Below, piece after piece: positions 5,987-21,725 of a DNA stretch of 32,172 bases. Each line of letters opens with the position of its first letter. Positions within the stretch are counted from its first letter, which is position 1. Where the stretch lies: NCBI GenBank assembly GCA_016220005.1, contig JACRIV010000037.1, forward strand, positions 1-32,172, in the 5' to 3' direction. The stretch comes from Deltaproteobacteria bacterium. GTDB taxonomy: Bacteria > Desulfobacterota > Deferrimicrobia > Deferrimicrobiales > Deferrimicrobiaceae. A model generated the notes under the pieces. The model was not told where the DNA came from and made no database searches. It was given only the letters and a program-made list of their open reading frames with translations. Made by a program: the position numbers and the translations under genes.

Positions 5987-6793
5987 TCAGGCGATGGCGG
6001 TCATCTTTTCGCCCCGGATGATGATCCGGGAAGGGTCGATCTCGTCCCGCAGGAGGCGCAGCTCGTCCTCCGTCGGCGGGTGGATTTCCGTGACGGTCTC
6101 CGCGATCAGCGGCCTGAACGCCATGTCCCTGGTAACTTCCTCGACCGAGAAACCCCGAAGGACCGACAGGAGAGTCATCTCCTTCGTGCGTTCGTCGAAG
6201 CCGAAGAGCGCCCTCGAGGTGACGACCCGGTAAGGGCCGGTGTTCCTCGGCAGGCCGGCCGCCTCCCGCGCGCCGGGGCCGCTCAGGTAGCCGGGAGAGG
6301 TGATGAATTCGACCTTGGGGACGAAGCGGCGCCCCTCGTGCTTGATGACGATGATCGTCCTCCAGCAATGGGAGGCTACCTGGTTTCCGCCGCCGCTGCC
6401 CGCGAACCGCCTTTCCGGATTCTCGAAGGTTCCGCCCAGGTAGGTGGAGTTGATGTTGCCATACGGGTCGACCTGGAGCGCACCGAGCATCCCGTAGTCC
6501 ATGTATCCCGCGGCGGAATAGGAAAACGCCCAGTTCATGTTCAGCCATTGCAGGGACCGGAACGTGTTCTGCGGCCCCCCCATGGTTCCTCTCACGAACG
6601 GAAGGACCGACTGCGGGCCGATCGCGCCGAACTCGAAGAGCTGGATCACGTTGGGGACGTAGAGCTTCTGGGCGAGGATGGCGACGATCTGCGGGATCCC
6701 CCACCCCACGAAGATCGACTTCCCGTCCTCGAGGAGTCGCGCCGCCTGCGCGATCATGAACTCCGTGTCGGTGAACTCTACGGTACGCGGCAT
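5987..6793 (-). CDS. CoA-transferase, beta subunit (glutaconate CoA-transferase / GctB type)
   Basis: 268 residues, a class I CoA-transferase beta chain that works with the alpha chain encoded 11 bp upstream. The reaction passes CoA between carboxylic acids through a glutamyl-CoA thioester. A glutamate at position 54 in LFEFGAIGP matches the position of the catalytic Glu54 of Acidaminococcus GctB. This argues for a real transferase, unlike the IpdAB branch, which lacks that residue. Other family features are FVGWGIPQ near 28, a glycine-rich stretch around 75-110, and GGTFENPERRFAGSGGG near 130. GGGAGGG lies upstream of the ATG. As the last gene of the acyl-CoA operon it could activate isobutyrate, butyrate or a dicarboxylate, with acetyl-CoA or succinyl-CoA as donor; the substrate is not determined. 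Confidence 0.85.
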   Translation of the reverse strand: MPRTVEFTDTEFMIAQAARLLEDGKSIFVGWGIPQIVAILAQKLYVPNVIQLFEFGAIGPQSVLPFVRGTMGGPQNTFRSLQWLNMNWAFSYSAAGYMDYGMLGALQVDPYGNINSTYLGGTFENPERRFAGSGGGNQVASHCWRTIIVIKHEGRRFVPKVEFITSPGYLSGPGAREAAGLPRNTGPYRVVTSRALFGFDERTKEMTLLSVLRGFSVEEVTRDMAFRPLIAETVTEIHPPTEDELRLLRDEIDPSRIIIRGEKMTAIA

Positions 6794-6804: not shown

Positions 6805-7776
6805 CTACCGATACCCCTCGATAATCGTGGCCCGGCTGCGGAGCTCCTTCATCTTTGCCGCGCCGACCCTCTTGTCGAGGAACTCCTCGTGGTCGGCGAC
6901 GCCGTAGATATTCTCTTCGAGATATTCCTGCATGCGCTCATCGTTCCGGATAGCATTCAGCCGGTCCACGTGCTCGAGGTCGATCTCGTACCGCGCCGGC
7001 ATCGCCCCCGGGTAGGCGCCGAACGGCGCGTGTACCACGGCGTCGACGAGGAAATAGGGGATCGTCGTGCGCATGGGGTCCTTGCGGAATTCGTCGGGAC
7101 TGACGATCTCTTCCGCCGACACGATGACCCTGTGGGATGCCATGGCGGCCTCGAGGGCGAAGAGGTTCGTCCCGAAGATGCGCGCGTCCCCGCGGACGTC
7201 CGCCTGGTGGACGTGGATGAACGCGACGTCCGGATTGAGGGCGGGGACGAGGCACACCGGCTGCCGCGTGTACGGGTCTTCGATCACCTTCGCCGCGGAG
7301 ACGGCGAGGTTGTCGGTGCCCAGGAGATCCCGTGTGGGCAGGAAGGAGACCCCCCGCGCCCCGGCGAGGATCCTCGAGGCCAGCCCCCCGTTGGTCCACT
7401 CATAGACCTTTACGCGTCCCTCGCATACCGCCTGCCCGATGTAGTTGCCGTATCCCAGGAACCCGACGTCGATGCGGGATGCGCACCCCGCCCCGGTGAG
7501 CAGGGCCGATTCGTGGAGCGTGAATTCCGCTCCGATCCAGAGGTCACGCTTCTTCTGCCGGATCACCTCCCGGATGAGGGACTGGGGGCCTCGCGTCAGG
7601 CTGGAGAAGTCGTAGACGATATAATCCCCGTCGCCGACGAAGCGGGACACCGCTTCTTTGGCGGAGCAGAGCTTGTCCGTCGGGTTCCGGCTCTTCCTGT
7701 CCCGGACGAACTCCCGGAATTCGTCCGGGTGCTCGAAACGGTACTCGACCTTCCCCTCTTTTCTGATCCGGCTCAC
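6805..7776 (-). CDS. CoA-transferase, alpha subunit (GctA type)
   Basis: 323 residues, the usual length of GctA-like alpha chains. Visible family features are the early VSRFVGDGDYIVYDFSS segment, LWIGAEFTLHESALLTGAG near 80-100, the GFLGYGNYIGQA stretch, LPTRDLLGTDN near 145, and PDVAFIHVHQADVRGDARI near 180-195, typical of the CoA-binding half. The C-terminus is an Arg/Glu-rich helix region. It starts with GTG inside GTGA, sharing bases with the stop of meaB, and AAGGGAAGAAGAA precedes it. The beta gene follows after 11 bp, so the two chains are probably made in equal amounts. Context ties it to the mutase / beta-oxidation operon, where a transferase spares ATP during substrate activation. 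Confidence 0.85.
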   Translation of the reverse strand: MSRIRKEGKVEYRFEHPDEFREFVRDRKSRNPTDKLCSAKEAVSRFVGDGDYIVYDFSSLTRGPQSLIREVIRQKKRDLWIGAEFTLHESALLTGAGCASRIDVGFLGYGNYIGQAVCEGRVKVYEWTNGGLASRILAGARGVSFLPTRDLLGTDNLAVSAAKVIEDPYTRQPVCLVPALNPDVAFIHVHQADVRGDARIFGTNLFALEAAMASHRVIVSAEEIVSPDEFRKDPMRTTIPYFLVDAVVHAPFGAYPGAMPARYEIDLEHVDRLNAIRNDERMQEYLEENIYGVADHEEFLDKRVGAAKMKELRSRATIIEGYR

Positions 7777-8801
7777 TTCTTCTTCCCTTTCCGGGCGGCG
7801 CGGCTCTCCAAGAGGTGGAACGCGAAGCTGTGGTCCACGACCTTTTCCACGATGGAATAAGGGTCCTTCCGCTTTCGCGCGATATCGTCGAGGATCGGAT
7901 CCAGGAGGTTGTTCCGGGCCAGGTCTTCCACCGCCTTCTCGATCAGCTTCTTCTTGAGGATCTCCAGCAGCTCCACCCTCGCCTTTCCCGTGCGGTAGAG
8001 GCTCAGGTTCTCCCCGCGATAGACGAACTGCCGGTGCTGCTCGATCCGCTCCGCCAGCTCGGGAATCCCGGTCCCGTCCTGGGCGACCGTCGCCAGCACC
8101 GGAGGGACCCAGTCTCCCTCCTGATACTCGTTCATCGAGACCATCGTTTCCAGTTCCCGGCGGGTCTTGTCCGCCCCCTCGCGGTCGTACTTGTTCACGA
8201 CGAAGATGTCGGCGATCTCCAGGATCCCCGCCTTGATGGCCTGGATGTCATCCCCCAGTCCGGGGACGACGACGACGACGTTGGTGTGCGCGACCTTGAC
8301 GATCTCCACCTCGTCCTGGCCGACTCCCACCGTCTCGATGAGGATGACCTCTTTCCCCATCGCGTCCATCACGTTGACGATGTCGATCGTCGACTTGGAG
8401 AGGCCTCCCAGGTGGCCGCGGGTGGCGAGGCTCCTGATGAAGACGCCCTCGTCGGAGGCGTGCTTCTGCATGCGGATCCGGTCTCCGAGTATCGCTCCTC
8501 CCGTGAACGGGCTGGTGGGGTCGACGGCGACGATCCCCACCGTCTTCCCCTGTTTCCTCAGATGCTCGATGAGGCAGTCCACAAGCGTCGACTTGCCGGC
8601 TCCGGGCGCGCCGGTGATCCCGAGTATATAGGCCCGTCCGGTGTGCCTGTAGAGGCGTGCGAGCGTCCGGTGCGCGGCGGGTATCTCGTCGTCGAGGTCG
8701 CGCATGAGGCGCGCGGCGGCGCGGACGTCGCCCGCCAGCACGTCTTTGACCGATACCGTCATCGACCGCTGCGCCCCGCTTTCCCCCATCTCAGGTTCCA
8801 T
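7773..8801 (-). CDS. meaB: MeaB-type G-protein chaperone of B12-dependent acyl-CoA mutase
   Basis: 342 residues from the ATG at 8801. It is a G3E-family P-loop GTPase: Walker A GAPGAGKST near residue 65, the VDPTSPFTGGAILGDRIRM block, IETVGVGQDEVEI (switch region), and NKYD for guanine recognition. MeaB-family proteins gate adenosylcobalamin loading and eject damaged cofactor from methylmalonyl-CoA or isobutyryl-CoA mutase. The mutase genes are about 3.4 kb upstream in the same operon. The start is uncertain: the ORF track uses GTG at 8822, ATGs lie at 8801, 8789 and 8762, and none has a good Shine-Dalgarno. The 8762 start would give 329 residues, the usual family length. Upstream lies the 350-bp non-coding gap with the inverted-repeat element, so this gene may be separately controlled. 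Confidence 0.9.
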   Translation of the reverse strand: MEPEMGESGAQRSMTVSVKDVLAGDVRAAARLMRDLDDEIPAAHRTLARLYRHTGRAYILGITGAPGAGKSTLVDCLIEHLRKQGKTVGIVAVDPTSPFTGGAILGDRIRMQKHASDEGVFIRSLATRGHLGGLSKSTIDIVNVMDAMGKEVILIETVGVGQDEVEIVKVAHTNVVVVVPGLGDDIQAIKAGILEIADIFVVNKYDREGADKTRRELETMVSMNEYQEGDWVPPVLATVAQDGTGIPELAERIEQHRQFVYRGENLSLYRTGKARVELLEILKKKLIEKAVEDLARNNLLDPILDDIARKRKDPYSIVEKVVDHSFAFHLLESRAARKGKKK

Positions 8802-8948
8802 ACCGGGTCGTGTCCGCAACACATCCGCAAGGCGCCCGCACCCGCCGTCGATGCGCGGTAGTCGCTATGCCTCGGCATGCCGCTTCCGCAGCGTCTTTGC
8901 GGCAGTGACTCACGCGCGGCACACGAGATCGGCGTGCGAGCCGCCGCA

Positions 8949-9154: not shown

Positions 9155-10300
9155 TTAGTTGCCCCGGATGAGCCGCCGCGCGATGATCAGGCGCTGAACC
9201 TCGGAGGTCCCCTCGCCTATCTCGCACAGCTTGGCGTCTCTCATGTATCGCTCCACGGGGTACTCCTGGATATAACCATATCCGCCGTGGATCTGCACCG
9301 CCTTTATTGTGGCGCGCATGGCCGCCTCGGAAGCGAAGAGCTTGGCGATCGCGGCCTCCTGGACGTAAGGGCGGCCCGCATCCTTCAGGTATGCGGCGCG
9401 TAAGGTGAGGAGCTCCGCCGCCTCGAGCTCCGTGGCCATGTCCGCAAGCATCCATTGGATCGCCTGGAACGACGAGATCGGCTGCCCGAACTGCCTGCGC
9501 TCCTTGGAGTACGCGATCGCCTCCGCCATGGCGCCCAGACCGATGCCTGCGGAAAGGGCCGCGATGGAGATCCGTCCTCCCGCCAGGTTGCGCATGGTGT
9601 CCCGGAAACCCGAATTGACCTCGCCGATGACGTTCCCCGGCTTGATCTCGAGGTCCTCGAACACGAGCTCCGCGGTATCGGAGGATCGCATCCCCAGTTT
9701 GTTCAGCTTCTTCCCGGTGGAAAGCCCCTTCGTCCCCGCCTCGACGAGGAAGGCGGTCACCCCGTCCCTCCCCTTCTCCCGATCGCTCACCGCAAGCACC
9801 ACGTACACCCCACCCACGTTACCTTGAGTGATGAACATCTTGCTTCCGTTGATGATCCAGCAGCCCCCCTTCCACTCCGCCTTCGTCCGCATGTTCAGCG
9901 AATCGGACCCGGAGCCCGGCTCGGTCAAAGCCCAGGCCCCGAGCATCCTGCCGGAGGCGAGCCCCGGAAGGTATTTCCTCCGGAGCGCCTCCGAGCCGAA
10001 CGCGAGGATGTGGGCCGTGCAAAGGGAGTTGTGGGAAGCCACGGTGAGCGCCAGCGAGCCGTCTCCCTTCGCGATCTCCTCCACGGCGATCGCGTAGCCG
10101 ACGGTGTCCATGCCGGACCCGCCGTACTCTTCGGGGACCATGGCGCCCATGAGGCCCAGCTCGCCGAGCTTGGCGACCGCCTCGAACGGGAATTTCCCTT
10201 CCTCGTCCCAAGCCCGTGCATGCGGGCGCACTTCCTTCTCGACGAAGGCGCGGATCATGTCCCGGAGGGCGGTCTGCTCCTGCGTGAGATCGAAGTCCAT
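9155..10300 (-). CDS. Acyl-CoA dehydrogenase (first of three)
   Basis: 381 residues, the full length of a short/branched-chain acyl-CoA dehydrogenase. This flavoprotein makes the alpha-beta double bond of an acyl-CoA and passes electrons to ETF. Seen are the N-terminal helical domain, ALTEPGSGSD near residue 130, the FAD-contact stretch WIINGSKMFITQG, KERRQFGQPISSFQAIQ in the C-terminal bundle, GGYGYIQEYPVER, and the catalytic base at E363 in GEGTSEVQR. GGGGAGAG precedes the ATG; the DUF35 gene ends 7 bp upstream. It is the most separate of the three paralogues in position, beside the thiolase-fold pair rather than the beta-oxidation block, so its substrate may differ. Chain-length preference cannot be read by eye. 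Confidence 0.92.
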   Translation of the reverse strand: MDFDLTQEQTALRDMIRAFVEKEVRPHARAWDEEGKFPFEAVAKLGELGLMGAMVPEEYGGSGMDTVGYAIAVEEIAKGDGSLALTVASHNSLCTAHILAFGSEALRRKYLPGLASGRMLGAWALTEPGSGSDSLNMRTKAEWKGGCWIINGSKMFITQGNVGGVYVVLAVSDREKGRDGVTAFLVEAGTKGLSTGKKLNKLGMRSSDTAELVFEDLEIKPGNVIGEVNSGFRDTMRNLAGGRISIAALSAGIGLGAMAEAIAYSKERRQFGQPISSFQAIQWMLADMATELEAAELLTLRAAYLKDAGRPYVQEAAIAKLFASEAAMRATIKAVQIHGGYGYIQEYPVERYMRDAKLCEIGEGTSEVQRLIIARRLIRGN

Positions 10301-10307
10301 CTCTCCC

Positions 10308-10868
10308 CTACCCCGCCGGGACGAAGTAGACGTCGGTCGGCCGAAGCTGCGAGTTTCTGCGGAACTTCGCCCGGATCTTCATCCCGATCTTGATGTCCTC
10401 CGGACCCCCTACCCCGATCAGCCGGGCGAGCAGGAGGGTGTCCACCCCCTCGAATTCAACGAGGACCAGGTGGAAGGGGGTTTCCTCCAGGAACTCCTCG
10501 CTTCCGTAGTAGCACGTGGTGAAGGTGTGAACGCGCCCTTCCTGCGGCAGTTCCACCCAGTCCGTCTCGCCCCCGCAGTGCGTGCAGTGGAGGCGCGGAG
10601 TGGCGTAAGTGTAGTCGCACTTCGCGCAACGGGTGCCAAGGAGTTTCCTGTTGGCGAGTCCCGCGAAGAACGGCGAGTCCTGGCCGTAGGAATGGATGTA
10701 TTCGACGTAATACGGGTATTTGACGACGATCGGAGACATCGTCTTCAGCACGGACAGATCCTTCGGGAAAGGGACGTTGAAGACCGTGGTCCCCGTCATC
10801 ACCTCTTCGAGCTTGGCCGCGGGGTTCCGCCGCGGGGCATTCTTCGCCTTCCCGTCGTTCTTCGCCAT
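10308..10868 (-). CDS. DUF35 / OB-fold zinc-ribbon acyl-CoA-binding protein
   Basis: 186 residues. A zinc ribbon formed by CAKC and CTHC (residues about 80-100) is followed by an OB-fold (GRVHTFTTCYYG, FHLVLVEFEGVDTLLLARL, IKIGMKIRAKF). DUF35 proteins partner thiolase-fold enzymes: archaeal acetoacetyl-CoA thiolase/HMG-CoA synthase, BbsA with BbsB, and ChsH2 with the aldolase Ltp2. They help hold the CoA moiety. The 60-residue N-terminal extension (MAKNDGKAKNAPRRNPAAK and onward) is basic at first and longer than in minimal family members. The ORF track begins at a GTG three codons earlier; I prefer the ATG at 10868, which lies 2 bp after the stop of the thiolase-fold gene with GGGGGTGG upstream. 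It surely forms a complex with that neighbour. Confidence 0.88.
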   Translation of the reverse strand: MAKNDGKAKNAPRRNPAAKLEEVMTGTTVFNVPFPKDLSVLKTMSPIVVKYPYYVEYIHSYGQDSPFFAGLANRKLLGTRCAKCDYTYATPRLHCTHCGGETDWVELPQEGRVHTFTTCYYGSEEFLEETPFHLVLVEFEGVDTLLLARLIGVGGPEDIKIGMKIRAKFRRNSQLRPTDVYFVPAG

Positions 10869-10870
10869 GG

Positions 10871-12157
10871 TTACCACCCCCGTTCCAGGATCGACACGGT
10901 GACATAGGTCCCCGTGCCCGCGTGGCTGTGGATCAGCCCTCGGTTGGCTTTCTTGAGCTGGAGCTCCGGCGACCCGTAATGCTTCTTGATCGTCCCCTGG
11001 ATCTGCCAGAAGGCGAACACCGCCTGCATGAGCCCGGTCGCCCCGACCGGGTGCCCGCAGGCGATCAGGCCGCCCGACGGGTTGACGGGGATCGTCCCCT
11101 TTCTTTTAAGCTTCAGCCCGTATTCGATCTGGGGCATGAACGGATGTCCTTCCTCGACGAACTTCCCTCCTCCGCCGTACTTGCAAAGCGCCAGGTCCTC
11201 GTAGGTCTGGATCTCCGAGGAAGTGTAGGCGTCGTGGAGCTCCACGAAGTCGATCTCCCTGATGGGATCCTTGATCCCCGCCATCCTGTATGCCTGCAGC
11301 CCCGCGGACCTTCCGGCCCGGAAGGAGTGGACCCCCGGGTACTTCAGGTTCTTGTAATCGCTCTTCTTCTCGTTGGGAGCAAGGATCACCTCACCGTGCG
11401 GCCTGTCGGCCATCCGCATCATGTCTGTCCCCGTGCCGACGCCGGTGATCTTCACCGGCCTGTCGGTCAGCTTGAAGGCGGTTTCCTCGTCGGCCAGGAT
11501 GCAGACCGCCGCCCCGTCGGACATGACGCAGATATCGAGCAGAGTCAACGGGTAGGCAACCATCTCCGCATTGCGCACATCCTGGATCGTGAGCCTCTTC
11601 CGTTTCTGGGCATAGGGGTTGTTGTACGCGTTCATGTGGTTCTTCACCGAGACCATCGCCATCTGCTCGACGGTGGTGCCGAACTCGTGGATGTGCCGGT
11701 TCACCATCATCGCGTAATAACCCGAGTAGAAGCCGCCGACGGGATAGTCGAAATTGACGTCCGAAGCGAGGGCGATGAACTCGTTCCCCTTCCATGTCTG
11801 GACGTGGGACATCGTCTCGAAGCCGAAGGCGACGCAGCAGTTCATCCGTCCCGATGCGACCGCTTCCCATGCTCCCTGGAAGCACAATCCGCCGGTGGCT
11901 CCGCCCCCTTCGATCCGCTTGTTCGGCTTTGGGCAAAGGCCCAGGTAATCCGTGGCCATGATCCCCGCCATGAGCTGCCGTGTGAAATGGTCCGAGAAAT
12001 AGGAACCGACCGAGCCGTCGATCATGTCGGGCCGGATCTTCGGGACGTCCCCCAACGCGTAGTCGAAAGCCTCCTTCACCATCTTCTGGAACGTCGCGTC
12101 CGGGCGCGCCTTCTCGAACTTGCTGACGCCCCCGGATACCATGTAGACAGGTCTCAC
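10871..12157 (-). CDS. Thiolase-fold protein lacking the nucleophilic cysteine, partner of DUF35
   Basis: 428 residues from the GTG at 12157, chosen because GGGAGGGGGGAG ends 3 bases before it and conserved sequence (RPVYMVSGGVSKF) follows; the ORF-track start at 12214 adds 19 unlikely residues. The fold is clear: KRIEGGGATGG, AVASGRMNCCVAFGFETM, FVELHDAYTSSEI and ACGHPVGATGLMQ. In an ungapped comparison with archaeal-type thiolases, VEAACASG corresponds to IEGGGATG here, so Gly86 replaces the nucleophilic Cys. The common HDCFT motif reads HDAYT, and the C-terminal CxG motif is absent (HSHAGTG). Claisen chemistry through an acyl-enzyme is therefore unlikely. Ltp2 of steroid degradation is a precedent: a Cys-less thiolase-fold protein that works as a retro-aldolase with a DUF35 partner. 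The substrate is unknown. Confidence 0.85.
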   Translation of the reverse strand: MRPVYMVSGGVSKFEKARPDATFQKMVKEAFDYALGDVPKIRPDMIDGSVGSYFSDHFTRQLMAGIMATDYLGLCPKPNKRIEGGGATGGLCFQGAWEAVASGRMNCCVAFGFETMSHVQTWKGNEFIALASDVNFDYPVGGFYSGYYAMMVNRHIHEFGTTVEQMAMVSVKNHMNAYNNPYAQKRKRLTIQDVRNAEMVAYPLTLLDICVMSDGAAVCILADEETAFKLTDRPVKITGVGTGTDMMRMADRPHGEVILAPNEKKSDYKNLKYPGVHSFRAGRSAGLQAYRMAGIKDPIREIDFVELHDAYTSSEIQTYEDLALCKYGGGGKFVEEGHPFMPQIEYGLKLKRKGTIPVNPSGGLIACGHPVGATGLMQAVFAFWQIQGTIKKHYGSPELQLKKANRGLIHSHAGTGTYVTVSILERGW

Positions 12158-12194: not shown

Positions 12195-12644
12195 CTATTT
12201 CCTGGGCTTGACATGCTCGCGGACGTAATCGACGATCTCCTGGAGCTTCGTTCCCGGCGTGAACACCCGGTCCACCCCCTTCTTCTTCAGCTTCGGGATG
12301 TCCTCGTCGGGGATGATCCCTCCCCCGAAGACCACGACTCCGTCCATCTTCTTCTCCCGGAGCATCTCCACGATCCTCGGGAAAAGGTAGTTGTGGGCGC
12401 CCGACAGGATCGAGAGGCCGATGCCGTCCACGTCCTCCTGGGCGGCCGCGTTCGCGATCATCTCCGGAGTCTGGTGGAGGCCGGTGTAGATGACCTCGAA
12501 TCCGGCGTCGCGGAGCGCCCTCGCGATGATCTTCGCTCCCCGGTCGTGGCCGTCCAGCCCCGGCTTCCCGATCAGGATGCGGACCTTCCGTGCCGGCTTC
12601 TTTCCTTTCGCGTCCGCCTGGCTCCTTGTCATTGCACTTGCCAT
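12195..12644 (-). CDS. B12-binding small subunit of acyl-CoA mutase (IcmB-like)
   Basis: 149 residues. After a basic tail of about 20 residues comes a cobalamin-binding Rossmann domain: [13 protein letters not shown] with the DxHxxG motif (base-off/His-on binding), then LSILSGAH (SxL region) and [12 protein letters not shown] (GG region). The closest relatives by pattern are stand-alone small subunits of isobutyryl-, methylmalonyl- and 2-hydroxyisobutyryl-CoA mutases. It follows the large-subunit gene after 23 bp, and GGGGGGAG precedes its ATG. Together the two make one adenosylcobalamin-dependent enzyme. Substrate choice lies in the large subunit, so this chain alone does not tell which mutase it is. 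Confidence 0.92.
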
Positions 12645-12667: not shown

Positions 12668-14347
12668 TTAGAACACTGCCGGATCGGTATAGGTGCCCAT
12701 CGTCTCCCGCAAAGCGTCGCAGATCTCCCCGAGCGTCGCGTATTCCCTGACCGCGTCGAGGAGGAGCGGCATGAGGTTCGCCTTCGAGAGCGACGCCTCC
12801 TTCAGCGCGTCGAGCCGGGCGCTCACCCGTTTCGCGCTGCGCTTCCTGCGCACCTCCTGGGTCCTTGCGACCTGTTTCTTCTCGACGCTCTCGTCGATCT
12901 TCAGGAGCGGGATGGGGATCTCCTCCTCCATCGTGTAGCAGTTGACGCCGACGATCTTCTTTTCCCTCGCGTCCACCAGCCTCTGGTAATGGAACGCCGC
13001 GTCCGCGATCTCCCGCTGCGGGTATCCCCGCTTGACCGCCGCGACCATGCCCCCCATATCGTCGATCTTTCCGATATAGGCCAAGGCCTTCTTCTCCATC
13101 TCACCGGTCAGTTTCTCGACGAGGAACGACCCCCCGAGAGGATCGATGGCGTTCGCGGCCCCGGACTCCTCGGCGATGATCTGCTGGGTGCGGAGCGCGA
13201 TCGTGGCCGCCTGTTCGGTGGGAAGCGCCAGCGTCTCGTCCATCGAGTTCGTGTGCAGCGACTGGGTCCCTCCCATCACCGCGGCAAGCGCCTGGAGGGC
13301 GACGCGGATGACGTTGTTGATCGGCTGCTGCGCCGTCAGGGTGCAGCCGGCCGTCTGGGTATGGAAACGCAGCTTCCAGGAGTTCTCGTCCCGGGCCTTG
13401 AACCGCTCCTTCATGATCCTTGCCCACATGCGCCGGGCGGCCCGGTACTTGGCGACCTCCTCGAAGAAGTCGATGTGGGAATTGAAGAAGAACGACAGCC
13501 GGGGTGCGAACTCGTCCACGGGGATCCCCGCCTCGATCCCCGCCCGGACGTAGGCGATCCCGTCCGCGAGCGTGAACGCCAGCTCCTGGACCGCCGTCGA
13601 GCCGGCTTCCCGGATATGGTACCCGCTGATGCTGATCGTGTTCCACTTCGGTACGTGATCCGTGCAGTAGGCCAGGATGTCCGTGATGATCCGCATCGAC
13701 GGCTCGGGCGGGAACACCCACGCGTGCTGGGCGATGTATTCCTTCAGGATGTCGTTCTGGATCGTCCCGCCGAGCTTCTTGAACGGAACGCCCTGCTTTT
13801 CCGCGACCCCGAGATACATCGCGAAGACCATCGCCGCGGGCCCGTTGATGGTCATCGAGGTAGTGACCTGGTCCAGGGGTATCCCGTCGAAGAGGATCTC
13901 CATGTCCTTCAGGGAGTCGACGGCCACCCCGCACTTTCCCACTTCCCCCTTCGCCCGGGGCGAGTCCGAGTCGTATCCCATGAGGGTCGGGAAGTGGAAC
14001 GCGGTCGACAGGCCGGTCTGCCCCTGGCTCAGGAGATACTTGAAGCGGGCGTTGGTGTCCTCGGCGGACCCGTATCCCGCGAACTGGCGCATCGTCCAGA
14101 GGCGCCCCCGGTACATCGAGGGCTGGACGCCGCGGGTGTACGGGTATTCTCCGGGAAAGGAAAAGTCCCTGTCGTAATCGAGCGCATCGAGGTCGTCGGG
14201 CGTGTAAAGCGCGGCGATCTCCTCGTCCGATACCGTGGAGAAGCGCTTGAGCCGCTCCGGGGCTCGGGAAAACGCCTTCGCCAGCGTTTCCTTCTCCCAA
14301 CGCTTCTTATGTTCCGCAATCGCGCGTGCCTTCTTCCTGTCATACAT
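12668..14347 (-). CDS. Acyl-CoA mutase large subunit with isobutyryl-CoA mutase signature
   Basis: 559 residues from the ATG at 14347 (AGGGAGAAG upstream); the ORF-track version is falsely extended into cobO. The TIM-barrel substrate domain of the B12 mutases is complete: [38 protein letters not shown] (Y243, H244) and TNSMDE. Numbering coincides with Propionibacterium MutB, where Tyr89 and Arg207 hold the methylmalonyl carboxylate. Here these are Phe89 and Gln207, the pair known from isobutyryl-CoA mutase (Phe80/Gln198 in IcmA). The expected reaction is isobutyryl-CoA to n-butyryl-CoA and back. AFHFPT at 116-121 differs from the common AFDLPT (His118 for Asp), so a somewhat different substrate remains possible, for example 2-methylbutyryl-CoA or a longer branched acyl-CoA. 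Flanked by cobO and its small subunit. Confidence 0.9.
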
Positions 14348-14920: not shown

Positions 14921-16054
14921 CTACCGCATCAGCGACCGCGAGATGACGATCCGCTGGATCTCCGAGGTCCCCTCGTAGATCGTGGTGACCCGGACGTCCC
15001 TCAAGTGCCGCTCCACGGGGTATTCCCGGATGTAGCCGTAGCCGCCCAGGATCTGGACCGCCTTGTGGCAGGCCCGATTTCCCGCCTCGGAGGCGAATAC
15101 CTTCGCCATCGACGCTTCCTTCGTGAAATTTCTTCCCGTTTCCTTGAGGTGCGCGGCCCGGTAGACGAGCATCTGGGCGGCGTCCAGCTCGGTGGCGGCA
15201 TCCGCGACCATCGCCTGGATCGCCTGGAACCCGGCGATCGGTTGTCCGAACTGTTTCCGCTCCTTGGCATAGGCGATCGCCGCTTCGAGAGCGGCCCGCC
15301 CGATCCCGACCGCCTGGGAGGCAATCCCTATGCGCCCTCCATCCAGAGCGGTCATGGCGATTTTGAACCCCTCTCCGGGCGCCCCCAGCATGTTCCGCTT
15401 CGGAACACGGCACTCGTCAAAGGCAAGGGAAACGGTGTTGGAGCCCTTCAGGCCCATCTTGTGTTCGGCCTTGCCCACGGAGAATCCCGGCGCGCCGGGC
15501 TCCACGAGGAAGGCGCTGATCTTCCTCTCGTCTTTCCGGGTCAGGGCCATGACGATCGTCACCCCGGCGTAAGCGCCGTTGGTGACGAAGACCTTGCTTC
15601 CGTTCAGGACGAAATGGTCTCCGTCCTCCGTGGCGGTCGTCCGGATGCTTCCCGCATCCGAACCCGCGGAGGGCTCGGTCAGCGCGAAAGCCCCCGCGCC
15701 TATCCCATACGTCGCCAGCCCGGGGAGGAACTTCCTGCGTTGCTCCTCGTTCCCGAACCGGTAGATCGCCTCCCCCACCATGTTGGTCACGGCCATCCCG
15801 ACCGCAGTGGAGGCACACCCCGCGGCGACTTCCCGCAGGGCGATGCTGTAGGCAAGCGGTCCCGCCTCGGACCCGCCGCGGGAAGCGGGGAAGAGCATCC
15901 CCAGGAGACCCAGCTCGGCGAGCTGCCGCATGTTCTCTTCCGGGTAGCGGCTCTCCTCGTCGATCTCGGCCGCCTTCGGCGCGAAGGCCTTCCGGGCAAG
16001 CTGGCGGACCATCTCCTCGATCTGGATCTGCTCGTCGGATAGATCGAAGCGCAT
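14921..16054 (-). CDS. Acyl-CoA dehydrogenase (second of three)
   Basis: 377 residues, complete. Family features: AFALTEPSAGSDAGS near residue 125, FVLNGSKVFVTNG, KERKQFGQPIAGFQAIQ, GGYGYIREYPVERHLRD, and the catalytic base at E361 in YEGTSEIQR, the position used by short-chain and butyryl-CoA dehydrogenases. One loop is unusual: where most relatives, including its two paralogues, read PEEYGG, this protein reads PASRGG (residues about 55-61). It is 7 bp after the third dehydrogenase gene and directly before cobO. Having two adjacent dehydrogenases suggests one for straight butyryl-CoA and one for a branched acyl-CoA such as isobutyryl- or 2-methylbutyryl-CoA, but which is which is not decided by sequence. 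Confidence 0.92.
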   Translation of the reverse strand: MRFDLSDEQIQIEEMVRQLARKAFAPKAAEIDEESRYPEENMRQLAELGLLGMLFPASRGGSEAGPLAYSIALREVAAGCASTAVGMAVTNMVGEAIYRFGNEEQRRKFLPGLATYGIGAGAFALTEPSAGSDAGSIRTTATEDGDHFVLNGSKVFVTNGAYAGVTIVMALTRKDERKISAFLVEPGAPGFSVGKAEHKMGLKGSNTVSLAFDECRVPKRNMLGAPGEGFKIAMTALDGGRIGIASQAVGIGRAALEAAIAYAKERKQFGQPIAGFQAIQAMVADAATELDAAQMLVYRAAHLKETGRNFTKEASMAKVFASEAGNRACHKAVQILGGYGYIREYPVERHLRDVRVTTIYEGTSEIQRIVISRSLMR

Positions 16055-16061
16055 CGTTTCC

Positions 16062-17204
16062 TCAGTCCTTCAGGAGCGCCGACGAGATCACCATGCGCTG
16101 GATCTCCGAGGTCCCCTCGTAGATTTCGGTGATCTTGGCGTCCCGGAAATGGCGCTCGGCCGGGTATTCCTTGATGTACCCGTATCCGCCGTGGACCTGG
16201 ATCCCCTTCACGCCGGCCCGCATGGCGACCTCGGATGCGTACAGCTTCGCCATGGCGGATTCCTTCGAATGGCGCACTTTCCGGTCCTTCAGCCATGCGG
16301 CGCGGTACGCCAGGAGCCGCGCCGCGTCGATTTCGGTGGCCATGTCGGCGAGCATCCACTGGATCGCCTGGAAGTTCGCGATGGGCTGCCCGAACTGTTT
16401 CCGCTCCTTGGCGTAGGTAAGCGCGTCCTCCAGGGACGCCCGTGCGATGCCGATCGCCTGCGCGGCGATCCCGATCCGGCCCCCGTCCAGCGTGTGCATC
16501 GCGACCTTGAACCCGTCCCCTTCGTTCCCCAGCCGATTCTCCGCGGGGATCTTCACCTCCTCCAGGATGATGGAGGATGTGGCGGAGGCTCTTATTCCCA
16601 TCTTTTTTTCGTGTTTACCGACAGTTACACCTTTAGAATTCATGTCCAAGATGAAGGCCGTTATCCCTTTGTGCTGCTTCTCCTTGTCGGTCATCGTGAA
16701 CAGCACGCAGGCGTCCGCCTGAGGGGCGTTGGTAATGAAATTCTTGGTGCCGTTGACGACGTAGTGGTCGCTGTTCCGGACGGCCGTGGTCTTCTGCGAG
16801 CCCGCGTCGGACCCTGCGCCCGGTTCCGTGAGGCCGAAGCAGCCGAGCTTCCGCCCCGAGGCCAGCGGCGCGAGGTATTTCTTCTTCACCTCCTCGGTGC
16901 CGAACTTAAGGATCGGGTCGCACACGAGCGAGTTGTTGACCGACATGATGACCGCCGTGGAGGCGCACGCCCGGGCGATTTCCTCCATCGCAATGACGTA
17001 GCAGATATTGTCCATCCCGGCGCCGCCGTACTCCTCGGGCACGGCAACTCCCATCAGGCCGAGCTCCGCCATCTGCCCGACGAGTTCCTCCGGGAAACGG
17101 CTGGTCTCGTCCAGCTCCGCGGCCTTCGGAAGAACTTCCTTCTGCGCGAAATTGCGCGCCATCTCCTGGATCATCCGCTGCTCTTCGGTCAAGTCGAACA
17201 CCAT
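16062..17204 (-). CDS. Acyl-CoA dehydrogenase (third; butyryl-CoA dehydrogenase-like)
   Basis: 380 residues, complete and closest by pattern to short-chain acyl-CoA dehydrogenases: VPEEYGGAGMDN near 55, FGLTEPGAGSDAGSQKT near 125, KNFITNAPQADACVLF, GIRASATSSI, KERKQFGQPIANFQAIQ, and the base at E363 in YEGTSEIQR. It probably oxidises butyryl-CoA to crotonyl-CoA, feeding the crotonase 40 bp upstream. GGGAGGGAG precedes the ATG. A short AT-rich patch (about 16590-16650) interrupts the normal GC-rich codon use and includes the in-frame heptamer A AAA AAG, a known -1 slippery sequence; nothing shows that it is used. No etfAB genes are visible nearby, so electrons go to an ETF encoded elsewhere. 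Confidence 0.93.
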   Translation of the reverse strand: MVFDLTEEQRMIQEMARNFAQKEVLPKAAELDETSRFPEELVGQMAELGLMGVAVPEEYGGAGMDNICYVIAMEEIARACASTAVIMSVNNSLVCDPILKFGTEEVKKKYLAPLASGRKLGCFGLTEPGAGSDAGSQKTTAVRNSDHYVVNGTKNFITNAPQADACVLFTMTDKEKQHKGITAFILDMNSKGVTVGKHEKKMGIRASATSSIILEEVKIPAENRLGNEGDGFKVAMHTLDGGRIGIAAQAIGIARASLEDALTYAKERKQFGQPIANFQAIQWMLADMATEIDAARLLAYRAAWLKDRKVRHSKESAMAKLYASEVAMRAGVKGIQVHGGYGYIKEYPAERHFRDAKITEIYEGTSEIQRMVISSALLKD

Positions 17205-17244: not shown

Positions 17245-18027
17245 TTATTTTCCGCCGAACACGGCCTTCCGCTTCTCCATGAATGCGGTCATCCCTTCGA
17301 TGCGGTCTTCGGTGGAAAAACCCACGGCGAACGCGTTCGCCTCGAGGGCGCACCCGTTTCCGAGGTCCAGGTCGAGTCCCCGGTTCATCGCCATCTTCGC
17401 GGTGCGGACCGCGACCGGCCCCTTGGAGAGGATCTTCGCGGCGACCTCCCGGGCGGCGTTCATCAGGTCCGCAGCCGGGACGACGCGGTTGACCAGCCCG
17501 ATCTCGAAGGCCCGCTGGGCGGTGATCGGGTCCCCCGTCAGCACGAGCTCCTTGGCCAGGTTCCGCCCCACGAGACGGGGGAGCCGCTGGGTCCCTCCGT
17601 AGCCCGGGATGATCCCCAGGTTGACCTCCGGCTGCCCGAATTTCGCGGTGTCGGCGGCGATCAGCAGGTCGCACGCCATCGCCAGCTCGCACCCTCCGCC
17701 CAGCGCGAAACCGTTGATCACCCCGATGACCGGCTGGGGGAGCCGCTCGATCTTTTCCAGGACGCTCTGTCCGAAAAGGGCGAATTCGAGCGCCTGAACG
17801 GGTGTGAAAGAGCGCATCTCCGAGATGTCCGCTCCCGCCACGAAGGCCTTCTCCCCCGCACCCGTGAGAAGGACAACGCCCGCGTCCTCCCTTCCCGCCA
17901 GGTCTTCAAAGGCCGCTTTCAGGTCGGTCATCGTCGCCGGGTTCAGGGCGTTCAGCGACTTGGGCCTGTTGATGACGATCGTTGCGATCCGGTCGGATAC
18001 GGAAAAGAGGAGATTGTCGTAGGCCAT
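17245..18027 (-). CDS. Enoyl-CoA hydratase (crotonase type)
   Basis: 260 residues, the standard crotonase length. It hydrates crotonyl-CoA to 3-hydroxybutyryl-CoA. The oxyanion-hole segments are AFVAGADISEM (61-71) and GFALGGGCELAMACD (107-121). The two catalytic glutamates are E114 and E134 (QPEVNLGIIPGYGG), matching the Glu pair of rat mitochondrial hydratase, so it is a hydratase and not an isomerase or hydrolase relative. GGGAGGAAAC precedes the ATG. It sits 10 bp after the 3-hydroxyacyl-CoA dehydrogenase gene and 40 bp before the third acyl-CoA dehydrogenase gene, in the usual order of a butyrate-oxidation or butyrate-forming cassette. Confidence 0.94.
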   Translation of the reverse strand: MAYDNLLFSVSDRIATIVINRPKSLNALNPATMTDLKAAFEDLAGREDAGVVLLTGAGEKAFVAGADISEMRSFTPVQALEFALFGQSVLEKIERLPQPVIGVINGFALGGGCELAMACDLLIAADTAKFGQPEVNLGIIPGYGGTQRLPRLVGRNLAKELVLTGDPITAQRAFEIGLVNRVVPAADLMNAAREVAAKILSKGPVAVRTAKMAMNRGLDLDLGNGCALEANAFAVGFSTEDRIEGMTAFMEKRKAVFGGK

Positions 18028-18037
18028 GTTTCCTCCC

Positions 18038-18895
18038 TTAAGCCTTCGGATAAGTGTAGAAGCCCCGCCCTGACTTCTTGCCGAGGTACCCGGCTTCGAC
18101 GTGCTTCTTCAGCAGCGGACAAGGACGGTACTTGGGATCCCCCAGCCCCTCCTGCAGCACCTTCAGGACCTCGAGGCAGGTGTCCAGCCCGATCAGGTCG
18201 GCAAGGGCCAGGGGCCCCATCGGGTGGTTCGCCCCCATCCGCATGATGGCGTCGATGTCCTCGGGCTTGCCCACGCCCTCCATAAGCGCGTAAACGGCCT
18301 CGTTGATCATCGGCATCAGGATCCGGTTCGCCACGAACCCGGGATAATCGTTTGCAGGGACCGGCTCCTTCCCGAGACGGCGGGATAGGTCCATGGTCGC
18401 ATCGAAGGTCTCCTGGGAGGTCTGGAGCCCTCGGATCACCTCGATCAGCTTCATCAGCGGCACCGGGTTCATGAAATGCATGCCGATGACCTTCTCCGGC
18501 CGTCCGGTCGCCGCGGCGATCCCGGTGATGGAGATCGACGAAGTGTTGGTGGCCAGGATCCTCCCGGCGGGGACGACCTCGTCCAGCTTCCTGAACAGCG
18601 CGAGCTTGAGCTCCTGCCGTTCCGTCGCCGCCTCGACGGCGAAGTCGCAGGACGCGAAGTCGGAAATGTTCGCCGTCGTCACCAGGTTGCCGATCATCCT
18701 TTCCTTGTCCGCCGCCGCGATTTTCTCCTTGCGGACCAGGATGTCCAGACCCTTCTCGATATTCGCCCGGCCCCTTACGAGGATCGCCTCCGAGACATCG
18801 TTGAGGAGGACCCGGAAGCCGCTCATAAGAGAAACCTGGGCGATGCCACCCCCCATCTGCCCCGCCCCCACCACGCCGATCGTCCGAACTTCCAT
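18038..18895 (-). CDS. 3-hydroxybutyryl-CoA dehydrogenase
   Basis: 285 residues from the ATG at 18895 (GGGAGGG seven bases upstream); the ORF-track version is falsely extended. NAD-binding Rossmann motif GAGQMGGGIAQ at 9-19. The catalytic residues fit the family: Ser in TNTSSISIT, His in GMHFMNPVP, and Asn in the later ANRILMPMINEAV helix. The end (KSGRGFYTYPKA) is typical of monofunctional enzymes of the Hbd/PaaH type. It oxidises 3-hydroxybutyryl-CoA to acetoacetyl-CoA. It lies between the thiolase (52 bp) and crotonase (10 bp) genes. Together with these and the dehydrogenases it makes a complete four-step beta-oxidation spiral for a C4 acyl-CoA. Confidence 0.94.
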   Translation of the reverse strand: MEVRTIGVVGAGQMGGGIAQVSLMSGFRVLLNDVSEAILVRGRANIEKGLDILVRKEKIAAADKERMIGNLVTTANISDFASCDFAVEAATERQELKLALFRKLDEVVPAGRILATNTSSISITGIAAATGRPEKVIGMHFMNPVPLMKLIEVIRGLQTSQETFDATMDLSRRLGKEPVPANDYPGFVANRILMPMINEAVYALMEGVGKPEDIDAIMRMGANHPMGPLALADLIGLDTCLEVLKVLQEGLGDPKYRPCPLLKKHVEAGYLGKKSGRGFYTYPKA

Positions 18896-18947: not shown

Positions 18948-20135
18948 CTATCGGCCGGGTTCTCGCTCCACCAGCATCGCGACCGCCTCGCCGCCGCCGA
19001 TGCACAGCGACGCGACGCCCAGTTTTTCGTCCCTCTCCTCCATGGCATAGAGGAGCGTCGTGAGGATCCGCGCCCCGGATGCCCCGATCGGATGGCCGAG
19101 AGCTACCGCCCCGCCGTGCACGTTGACCCGCTTCGGGTCGAGCGAAAGGCCCCGGATCGCAGCCAACGCGACTCCCGCGAATGCCTCGTTGATCTCGTAG
19201 AGCCCCACCTGGTCCTTGTCGACGCCCGCCTTGTGGAGGAGCTTGCGGATCGCGTCGATCGGGGCCACGGTGAACCACACCGGTTCGAGGGAAGCCGTGG
19301 CATATCCGAGGATCTTCGCGAGAGGCTTGATTCCACGTTCCCTTGCTCCTTCCGCGGACATGACGACGACCGCAGCGGCTCCGTCGTTAATGGTGGAGGC
19401 GTTCCCAGCGGTGACGGTGCCGTCCTTCTGGAACGCCGGCTTGAGAGTCGGAAGCTTGGTGACGTTTCCGCGGCCCGGCTCCTCATCCTCCTTGATAACC
19501 ACCGGATCTCCCTTCCGCTGGGGAATCTCGACTCCCACGATCTCCTTTTCGAACTTGCCTTCCTTGATCGCGGAGAGGGCCCGGGTATAGGACGTCGCGG
19601 CGTACTCGTCCTGGTCCTCGCGGCTGATGCGGTGTTCCCCGGCCAGGAGCTCGGCGCATTTTCCCATGTGGATGTCGTTGTAGGCGTCCCACAGGCCGTC
19701 GACGATCATGTGGTCGTAGATCGTGTCGTTGCCGAGACGGTACCCGTTGCGGGCCTTTCGCAGCAGGTAGGGAGCCTGGCTCATCGATTCCATCCCGCCG
19801 GCGACGACGACATCGAACTCCTCGGTGGCTACCGATTGGGCCGCGAGCATGACGGCCTTGAGCCCCGAGCCGCACATCTTGTTGATGGTCACGGCGCCGG
19901 CGGAAACCGGGATCCCCGCGTAGATCCCCGCCTGCCGGGCAGGAGCCTGCCCAATGCCGGCCGGAAGGCAGTTTCCCATGATGACCTGTTCGACCTCCTC
20001 CTTCCCGATTCCGCCGCGGGAGACCGCTTCCGCGATGGCGACCGCACCGAGCTTGGGGGCCGGGATCTCCCCAAGACCTCCCATGAAACTGCCGATGGCG
20101 GTCCTGGCTGCGCCGGTGATCACGACTTCCTTCAT
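18948..20135 (-). CDS. Acetyl-CoA acetyltransferase (thiolase II)
   Basis: 395 residues with all thiolase residues in place: nucleophile C88 in NKMCGSG, the NEAFAGV motif, H348 in [14 protein letters not shown] and C378 in CIGGGEAV, the same spacing as Zoogloea thiolase (C89, H348, C378). It cleaves acetoacetyl-CoA with CoA to two acetyl-CoA, the last step of the C4 pathway. AAAGGAGA precedes the ATG. It is the first enzyme gene of the operon, 41 bp after merR. Its intact catalytic set contrasts with the second thiolase-fold protein of the operon (10871-12157), which makes it unlikely that the second one is a spare thiolase. Confidence 0.95.
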
Positions 20136-20176: not shown

Positions 20177-20575
20177 TCAGGTTTCCTGCTGCAATTTGCT
20201 GCGAAGCCTCGTCTGGTATTCCCGGATCTCCTTCTTGAGGGCGGTCAGCTGAAGGATCCGTTCGTCGACCTGCACGGCGCGCTCGTCCAGGATGGCGAGC
20301 AGCTTGGGGATCACCTCGCGGTTGTTCCGCTCCTGGCGGTAGATCTTCTCGAGCGCGACCAGCTCGGCAAGCGAAAGGCCCAGCACCTTGAGTCGATTGA
20401 TGAATTTCAGGCGGCGCACGTCGTCGTCGGTATAGACGCGCTTCCCGTTCTCGATCCTCCGCACGCTGTGCAGCAGGCCGATCTCCTCGTAATACCTTAT
20501 GGTTCGCTGGGTGAGGTTGACCATCCGGCTCAGTTCGCCGATCGGGTAGGTTTGCTTCGGTTCGGAGGACCCCAT
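20177..20575 (-). CDS. MerR-family regulator heading the acyl-CoA operon
   Basis: 132 residues. The N-terminal winged helix is typical: YPIGELSRMVNLTQRTIRYYEEIGLL, then RVYTDDDVRRLKFI, followed by a dimerisation coiled coil (residues about 80-130). No C-terminal metal-site cysteines are present, so this is not a metal sensor; a CoA-ester ligand would fit the context. MerR regulators of the LiuR type control branched-chain amino acid and acyl-CoA degradation in other proteobacteria. The ATG at 20575 is preferred over the GTG at 20584 because AAGGTGG lies at the right distance upstream. It is the promoter-proximal gene, so it is probably autoregulated with the operon. Confidence 0.88.
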   Translation of the reverse strand: MGSSEPKQTYPIGELSRMVNLTQRTIRYYEEIGLLHSVRRIENGKRVYTDDDVRRLKFINRLKVLGLSLAELVALEKIYRQERNNREVIPKLLAILDERAVQVDERILQLTALKKEIREYQTRLRSKLQQET

Positions 20576-20585
20576 AATCACCACC

Positions 20586-20672: not shown

Positions 20673-21725
20673 CTAGCCGCGCTTCTCTACGAACGCCTTG
20701 ATCCTTCCCGATACGTCGGGGAACTGGTTCCCCGCGGATTCGATATCGAGGGACAGGAACAGCAGCCCGCGTTTTTCCGCCTGCGCCGCCGTCTCCCGGT
20801 CTTCATCGTATTCGACTGCACGCGCCCCGGCCCGCAGCATCAGGATACGGTCCGCCCCGCACTCCGCGGCCCGACGGAACAGCCATTCCATCCTCTCCGG
20901 CCCCGCATATCGAACACGGAGGGAGGAGACCTTCTCCCGAAGCGCCCGCGCCAGGGCAAGGGCCATGTCTCCTCCCTCGGGGACGATCCCGGTGAAGTAC
21001 CGGTGGCCCCTCGCGAGATCGTCGCCCACGATGCCTGCATCCGCGCGGTCGAGGACCCGCATTACGGCCGCCGTGGCCGTTCCGCCGGCCAAGAACACCC
21101 TCGTCCGGAGGACGCGCCGTCCGCCGCTCTCCCTGCCCAGCGCTTCCCGCAGGATCGCGGTGTGCGCCCCTTTGGACAGGACCCAGCCCGCCTCGACAAG
21201 ATGCAGGTATTCGAGACCGGTGAAGCCGCCGGGGGATTCCGTCATCCTCTCCTCCAGGCGGGCGAAGGCCTTCCTATTTTCATTGTAGGCCCGGACGGCC
21301 TTATCGAGCGCCCCCTCGGTCACCTTCCTTACCGACATTCCTTCCGCCCACTCGCAAAGCTCCTCGACCCGGTCCAGGAGGGTCACCATCATCGCGGAGC
21401 CGCCCCTGTCTTCCGGTAAAACGAAACGGAAGACCGGCCGGGACTCACCGTCCAGCCGGATCTTTCCGCCGAAATGAATGTCGGATTGGGGGTCTGCCGG
21501 GACGACCCAGGCGTCGATCGTCTCGAGCAAGGACTCGCCCTCGCCTCCCCAGACGGAGACGGGGAGCATTCCCGCGGCATGGATCGCCTCTTCGGGGACG
21601 CAGCCCGAAAGGCATCCGACCGCCTTGCGGCCCGTGAGCGCCTTCCAGCGGGAAACCGCCCGGGCGGGGTCTGCGGAAACCTCCGCCGCTATGCGGAGCG
21701 CGTCCTCAACGCCTAGGGTGAACAT
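20673..21725 (-). CDS. Orphan 2-hydroxyacyl-CoA dehydratase D-like protein, cluster ligands missing
   Basis: 350 residues, somewhat short for the HgdB/FldB/BcrB family. Family landmarks are the start of the first domain (AVGCLSGCVPEEAIHAAGMLPVSVWG), the helix with YNENRKAF near 150, RVFLAGG near 208, GDDLARGHRYF near 235, and the closing LLFLSLDIES...RIKAFVE. In active members cysteines near YxCxY, DDLC and FCDP hold a [4Fe-4S] cluster; here these places read WVVPADPQSD, DDLARG and LRAGARAVEYD. No second subunit or ATP-driven activator gene (HgdC type) is next to it. It may be a CoA-binding or regulatory relic rather than a dehydratase. Its ATG lacks a strong ribosome-binding site; it follows the second structured gap. 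Confidence 0.7.
   Translation of the reverse strand: MFTLGVEDALRIAAEVSADPARAVSRWKALTGRKAVGCLSGCVPEEAIHAAGMLPVSVWGGEGESLLETIDAWVVPADPQSDIHFGGKIRLDGESRPVFRFVLPEDRGGSAMMVTLLDRVEELCEWAEGMSVRKVTEGALDKAVRAYNENRKAFARLEERMTESPGGFTGLEYLHLVEAGWVLSKGAHTAILREALGRESGGRRVLRTRVFLAGGTATAAVMRVLDRADAGIVGDDLARGHRYFTGIVPEGGDMALALARALREKVSSLRVRYAGPERMEWLFRRAAECGADRILMLRAGARAVEYDEDRETAAQAEKRGLLFLSLDIESAGNQFPDVSGRIKAFVEKRG

Follow-up and report, generated by a model that had tools for sequence, protein, structure and literature searches.

A cysteine-less thiolase-fold protein with a DUF35 partner: a candidate acyl-CoA aldolase linked to isobutyryl-CoA mutase genes

The described protein closest to the one reported here is the archaeal acetoacetyl-CoA thiolase of Methanothermococcus (6esq, 6et9), which has a DUF35 partner, an HD motif and a GHxxGATG loop in common with it, and which possesses both a nucleophilic cysteine (EAACASG) and an HDCF motif. 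Two further thiolase-fold/DUF35 pairs, the steroid aldolase Ltp2-ChsH2 (6ok1) and the bile-acid aldolase CtSal-Shy (9myr), lack a cysteine at the nucleophile position. The genes of the former presumably have acyl-CoA dehydrogenase genes as neighbours (the igr operon), as is the case here. CtSal-Shy, with glycine at that position, is proven to perform a retro-aldol reaction on acyl-CoA; the catalytic residues of CtSal are Tyr302 and Cys304 of a YDCY motif, the activity of its C304A variant being undetectable, and those of Ltp2 are Tyr294 of YDHF and Tyr344 (PMC12329534).

We analysed a window of 32,172 nucleotides from a deltaproteobacterium of the family Deferrimicrobiaceae (assembly GCA_016220005.1, contig JACRIV010000037.1). 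It encodes a Cys-less thiolase-fold protein of 428 amino acids (THL; positions 10871 to 12157, minus strand) followed by a DUF35 protein (10308 to 10868, minus strand). We infer that an aldolase function, proposed for this pair in the original prediction, is the best available reading.

Sequence, fold and conservation of THL

The THL gene starts with GTG at 12157 behind a strong Shine-Dalgarno sequence (GGGAGGGGGGAGCAC-GTG) and stops at 10871. Both Pfam thiolase domains were detected in its product, with weak to moderate scores. A phmmer alignment to the 6esq thiolase placed Gly86 at the nucleophilic cysteine (KRIEGGGATGG versus TRVEAACASGS), HDAYT opposite HDCFA and, near the C-terminus, SHAGTG opposite NVGGTG. 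The N-terminal ACASG nucleophile was therefore absent from THL, as was the second catalytic cysteine, whether sought in HDCF (here Ala310) or in the C-terminal CxG (here SHAGTG). What persists of a thiolase is the fold and the GHP histidine, His369, which is invariant within a retained GHPVGATG loop; the motif residues thus read H308-D-A-Y, H369 and S411-H412-A-G-T-G. The original prediction had anticipated the glycine, the HDAYT motif, the missing C-terminal cysteine motif and the well-kept loop and fold, and the alignment agreed with it on each, as did the structural comparison on the fold.

An AlphaFold2 model of THL built on the family alignment (pLDDT 90, pTM 0.92) had weak loops at residues 58-60 and 135-141, both adjoining the invariant DHF and Tyr motifs. 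The top Foldseek match was the thiolase chain of the Methanothermococcus thiolase/DUF35/HMG-CoA synthase complex (6et9/6esq; TM 0.85 by query, 30% identity), which was also the best PDB match by sequence (2.9e-45). Fifth was ST0096 of Sulfolobus tokodaii (4yzo), another thiolase-like protein of solved structure in which the nucleophile is missing (RVDNTSGSGG); at 28% identity and with an HDMAT motif, it represents a separate family. Ltp2 and Sal ranked 32-34, and in both sequence and fold THL is closer to archaeal thiolases than to either.

Relatives of THL came from loci on 80 genome contigs and from 297 surveyed genomes belonging to the phylum of the window. Position 86 was glycine in 112 of 114 aligned proteins, and the two rows with cysteine both derive from a single ordinary Cys thiolase, split in two, that is encoded elsewhere in the window's own genome (contig C68); glycine is thus found in every one of the 112 family members, which were drawn from bacteria as well as archaea. 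A wider alignment of 48 members, reaching down to 40% identity, contained no invariant cysteine; its invariant residues include F54, D56, H57, F58, Y144, Y147, Y148, K172, R248, R252, H308, D309, A310, N359, H369, S411 and H412. In a maximum-likelihood tree, in which long outgroup branches call for caution, the glycine family formed one clade apart from ordinary thiolases (100/99). Gly86 is the conserved state of this family and not a sign of decay; a pseudogene is ruled out by the invariant active-site set.

By score and full-length match, THL belongs to the same family as NCBIfam NF004982 (PRK06365, 'thiolase domain-containing protein', a name without a function). Its own score of 686.4 bits did not reach the curated cut-off of 695 bits, and relatives in the same clade score 695-698 bits. 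It fell far below the cut-off of every lipid-transfer-protein and BbsB model, scoring 153 bits against that of the BbsAB benzoylsuccinyl-CoA thiolase (NF053628, cut-off 750 bits), whose Cys nucleophile it lacks. The THL pair is under strong constraint. The family is widespread and devoid of the thiolase cysteine, yet its conservation next to genes of branched-chain acid breakdown is strict, and it probably catalyses a different reaction, most likely a cysteine-independent C-C cleavage. The labels acetyl-CoA acetyltransferase and thiolase-domain protein given to such families are very unlikely to be right in view of the lost cysteine, and a non-existent thiolase may figure in the metabolic models of many uncultured anaerobes.

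The DUF35 partner and the gene cluster

The DUF35 gene begins with ATG at 10868, only 2 nt beyond the stop codon of THL; its product was assigned by Pfam (zf-ChsH2 and OB_ChsH2_C) and by conservation. Four zinc-ribbon cysteines are kept, together with a family-specific HSYGQDSPFF segment. A DUF35 gene lay directly downstream of THL in 63 of 72 loci in a first set and in 28 of 29 in a second. His59 of the window protein, within YIHSYGQDSPFF, was present in all 28 aligned partners and so is better conserved than the zinc ligands; it may reach into the THL active site. Chloroflexota copies (L063, L060, L069 and other Anaerolineae) have lost the zinc-ribbon cysteines, and zinc is therefore probably not essential to the pair.

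All genes of the cluster lie on the minus strand. Behind a MerR-family regulator at its head (20177 to 20584), the order of transcription is an acetyl-CoA acetyltransferase (18948 to 20135), which is the intact Cys thiolase that the original prediction had placed in the operon; 3-hydroxybutyryl-CoA dehydrogenase (18038 to 18895; PRK05808, 419.5 bits, cut-off 408); an enoyl-CoA hydratase of the crotonase type (17245 to 18027); ACAD1, a butyryl-CoA dehydrogenase type (16062 to 17204); ACAD2, a short-chain type (14921 to 16054); the mutase large subunit MutA (12668 to 14347); and the B12-binding small subunit MutB (12195 to 12644; TIGR00640, 170 bits). THL and DUF35 follow, then the short-chain acyl-CoA dehydrogenase ACAD3 (9155 to 10300), the mutase chaperone GTPase MeaB (7773 to 8822; TIGR00750, 336 bits, cut-off 241) and the alpha (6805 to 7776) and beta (5987 to 6793) subunits of a glutaconate-type CoA-transferase. 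The beta subunit keeps the glutamate of the ESG motif of 1poi_B (here EFG), which we take to be the catalytic residue of GctB. The predicted products suggest a context of branched-chain acyl-CoA oxidation with butyryl-CoA beta-oxidation. Upstream of the cluster is a lone HGD-D, a 2-hydroxyacyl-CoA dehydratase/benzoyl-CoA reductase-like subunit (20673-21725, minus strand).

ACAD1 and ACAD2 have tyrosine at the position of Tyr375 in MCAD (367 in SCAD), whereas ACAD3 has Gly362 there (IGEGTSEVQ). Glycine occupied this position in 42 of 43 scored dehydrogenases within 1.5 kb of a THL gene and in 7 of 28 elsewhere in the same loci; these are counts over related sequences, and four of the seven exceptions come from loci in which the THL gene was uncalled or lay just past 1.5 kb. 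In human isovaleryl-CoA dehydrogenase (IVD), space for a C3 methyl branch is created by this glycine (G406) together with A407, and in isobutyryl-CoA dehydrogenase the pocket tyrosine is also replaced (PMC12369846, PMC5798300). The ACAD3 substrate is thus presumed to be branched-chain. The catalytic Glu363 of ACAD3 stands in the usual place, where human IVD has alanine; the enzyme accordingly resembles a standard IVD without being one, and isovaleryl-CoA is unproven as its substrate.

Phenylalanine at the Tyr89 position of methylmalonyl-CoA mutase together with glutamine at the Arg207 position is, we assume, the signature of isobutyryl-CoA mutase. The window MutA carries both (Phe89, Gln207), as did every readable MutA beside THL, with numbering anchored on 1req and the Y89F mutant 5req. 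The residues of 2-hydroxyisobutyryl-CoA mutase (Ile90 and Asp117; isoleucine and aspartate in 4r3u) were not found in the window MutA, which has phenylalanine and alanine (Ala116) in their place. An acetone-activation operon built on that mutase, of the Desulfococcus/Desulfotomaculum type, is therefore ruled out. It had been considered because Desulfotomaculum arcticum, when growing on acetone, produces a DUF35 protein along with an acetyltransferase adjacent to it (PMC8084838), a pair that could not be equated with THL-DUF35.

The predicted link between the pair and IcmA-like genes proved real. MutB lay directly upstream of THL in 35 of 78 loci in the first set and 13 of 28 in the second, and within the phylum the F89-type DNA signature was present in 10 of 31 THL genomes versus 21 of 266 others (p 0.0004, uncorrected for kinship). 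Each of the 47 THL genomes tested had a mutase homologue of some sort, but the top-scoring one was of the methylmalonyl type in five Geobacteraceae and two Anaerolineae, and the link therefore does not hold everywhere. In L022, L023, L030-L033, L046 and L050, MutB directly precedes THL with no MutA nearby; G311 and G312, which were checked, encode their F89/Q207 MutA at a distant site. The association of the B12 subunit with THL thus seems closer than that with MutA.

Two further features of these mutase loci were observed. Residue 118 of MutA is histidine (AFHFPT) in the window and some other THL-linked mutases and aspartate (AFDLPT) in the rest, possibly a difference in the substrate pocket. 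In Nitrospirota clusters an MBL-fold hydrolase lies between MutA and MutB (L014:6914-7756 and equivalents); it is similar to YtnP-type lactonases, though it scores under the cut-off for that family.

A possible retro-aldol reaction and its alternatives

We tentatively propose, at rather less than even confidence, that the THL-DUF35 pair is a retro-aldolase for branched 3-hydroxyacyl-CoA. The pair would be an active acyl-CoA enzyme working without a covalent acyl-Cys: ACAD3 would form a branched enoyl-CoA, the crotonase would hydrate it to the 3-hydroxyacyl-CoA, and THL-DUF35 would split this by retro-aldol cleavage, the oxyanion being held at the place of the acyl-Cys. The conserved His308, His369, His412 and Tyr144, Tyr147 and Tyr148 are candidates for the acid/base and oxyanion set. 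Since a tertiary 3-alcohol is not oxidisable to the 3-ketone, ordinary thiolysis would be impossible and an aldolase would be needed, by comparison with the C17 alcohol handled by Ltp2. For this reason 3-hydroxyisovaleryl-CoA, the branched-chain intermediate barred from 3-ketoacyl thiolysis, is the likeliest single substrate, giving acetone and acetyl-CoA, although we regard so specific an assignment as doubtful; its cleavage would offer a carboxylase-independent finish for isovaleryl-CoA from leucine or isovalerate. The notion of a third, independently evolved thiolase-fold C-C lyase, based on His and not Tyr and serving a biotin-free leucine/isovalerate route in many bacterial phyla and some archaea without methylcrotonyl-CoA carboxylase (MCC) or HMG-CoA lyase, is likewise doubtful. 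Chemistry, substrate and direction are all putative.

The aldolase reading is favoured by the uniform Gly86 within one supported clade, by the invariant polar residues (Asp56, His57, Tyr144, Tyr147, Tyr148, His308, Asp309, His369 and His412), by the DUF35 gene directly downstream in most loci and by the precedent of Sal, a proven DUF35-paired retro-aldolase with glycine at the same position. It is favoured too by Bacillota operons, which comprise an acyl-CoA synthetase, THL, DUF35 and an ACAD and contain neither a Cys thiolase nor a 3-hydroxyacyl-CoA dehydrogenase. The pocket glycine of the adjoining dehydrogenases argues for a branched substrate. Branched-chain 2-oxoacid dehydrogenase-like genes favour the leucine/isovalerate route; reading by eye, we found them as neighbours of THL in Geobacteraceae, near the ACAD-THL genes of some Desulfuromonadales and in Nitrospirota clusters, together in the last case with methylcitrate-cycle genes.

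Of the 61 THL genomes, 5 have a true MCC and 56 do not, and HMG-CoA lyase exceeded its cut-off in 4 of 61, which would leave room for a route to acetone and acetyl-CoA. This argument from absence is weakened because for neither enzyme did the lack differ significantly from background within the phylum (HMG-CoA lyase, 1/10 versus 83/287, p 0.29; MCC, 0/10 versus 57/287, p 0.22). The acetone product is weakened by acetone carboxylase gamma, which occurs in only 5 of 61 THL genomes and so rules this carboxylase out as a general partner, and by an acetoacetate-CoA ligase (974 bits, cut-off 639) that closes the Bacillota operon L197:4656-11252 and fits acetoacetate better. The literature searched offered nothing directly on point, either for a combination of DUF35 with a mutase or for a leucine route that forms acetone. 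Elsewhere in the window's own genome, C68:3000-22900 (L210) holds HyuA-like ORFs, an acetone-carboxylase gamma-type protein and a transporter-like ORF (read by eye), as well as an ordinary Cys thiolase adjoining a DUF35, and is possibly an acetone or acetophenone carboxylase cluster.

The strongest co-location, that with isobutyryl-CoA mutase, is not directly explained by the leucine proposal, which it weakens. It would be addressed if the pair performed other enolate chemistry on an acyl-CoA without C-C cleavage, such as alpha-epimerisation, isomerisation, decarboxylation or thioester hydrolysis, in service of the mutase branch. Retention of both thiolase histidines (HD and GHP) with loss of both cysteines suits enolate stabilisation, and MutB stands directly upstream of THL even in the loci named above that have no MutA nearby. 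We nevertheless consider this unlikely: isobutyryl-CoA, being prochiral, has no use for an epimerase, coupling to a Gly-type dehydrogenase in loci with no mutase nearby is left unexplained, and we know of no thiolase-fold/DUF35 pair that performs such chemistry.

Adjacency to MutB and MeaB, with both cysteines gone, might also indicate a dead pseudo-thiolase that serves the mutase complex as a scaffold or regulatory partner. This is improbable given that a large polar active-site set, three histidines included, is invariant to about 40% identity, that the GHPVGATG loop would not be expected to persist, and that THL occurs without an adjoining mutase in Geobacteraceae, Bacillota and Chloroflexota.

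A retro-aldol cleavage of a different tertiary alcohol, HMG-CoA to acetoacetate and acetyl-CoA in leucine breakdown, would make the pair an analogue of HMG-CoA lyase. The scarcity of that enzyme in THL genomes and the ligase of L197 would fit, as would AtoDA-type CoA-transferases near THL in L200 and L203 and three Anaerolineae in which a true MCC operon lies divergently beside THL-DUF35 and the genome has no HMG-CoA lyase. The source of HMG-CoA is not obvious, however, as MCC is missing from most THL genomes and several Nitrospirota lack a close carboxyltransferase of any kind, so that this replacement was demoted as a lead and appears quite improbable. Moreover, the Anaerolineae MCC operon (L063:2941-6372) has its own CitE-like lyase and a RipB-like MaoC hydratase; as the L063 genome lacks an HMG-CoA lyase over cut-off, this suggests an HMG-CoA lyase of CitE type.

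A biosynthetic direction, in which an acyl-CoA enolate would condense with a ketone or acyl-CoA in an aldol or Claisen-like reaction, draws on the nearest fold belonging to the archaeal thiolase/DUF35/HMG-CoA synthase complex and on the reversibility of aldol reactions, but is decidedly improbable beside catabolic neighbours (dehydrogenases, CoA-transferase and BCKDH-like genes) and with no acyl-Cys for Claisen condensation. It is very improbable indeed that THL is a thiolase with a displaced nucleophile: at least 90% of the family retain Cys210, but SCP2 thiolase and BbsB have a cysteine at or next to that place in addition to the usual one, no cysteine is invariant, and Cys92 (GGLCFQ), which the original prediction had singled out as a potential nucleophile, is ruled out by being cysteine in only 85 of 114 proteins.

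Comparison with the Ltp2 and Sal aldolases

Were the pair an aldolase, a C-C bond step without biotin carboxylation would be added to branched-chain acid oxidation, and thiolase folds would have turned aldolase by more than one catalytic solution. THL pairs occur in isolates (Geomonas, Geomesophilobacter), where they are directly testable.

THL shares with Ltp2 and Sal the DUF35 partner and the lack of a cysteine at the nucleophile position. The prediction of a Cys-less pair that might be an aldolase holds insofar as the pair is real and CtSal likewise has glycine; its likeness to Ltp2 did not withstand comparison of the catalytic residues. The tyrosine of the YD[HC][FY] motif was absent from the THL family, which has HDA[YF] with His308 invariant. 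Tyr294 of Ltp2 (22% identity) is thus replaced by this histidine, and Tyr302 and Cys304 of Sal (23% identity, Foldseek rank 34) by His308 and Ala310; Tyr344 of Ltp2 would fall near Asn359, judged by spacing only. With neither dyad complete, THL is ruled out as an Ltp2/Sal enzyme, and the absence of the motif tyrosine and of the essential Sal cysteine weakens the aldolase proposal. So does the absence of a hydratase fused to the window DUF35, unlike in ChsH2 and in Shy, where the fused hydratase is of the MaoC type. Loss of the cysteine is common to THL and to Ltp2/Sal, the catalytic solution apparently being different; by analogy, THL may work like these aldolases without belonging to them.
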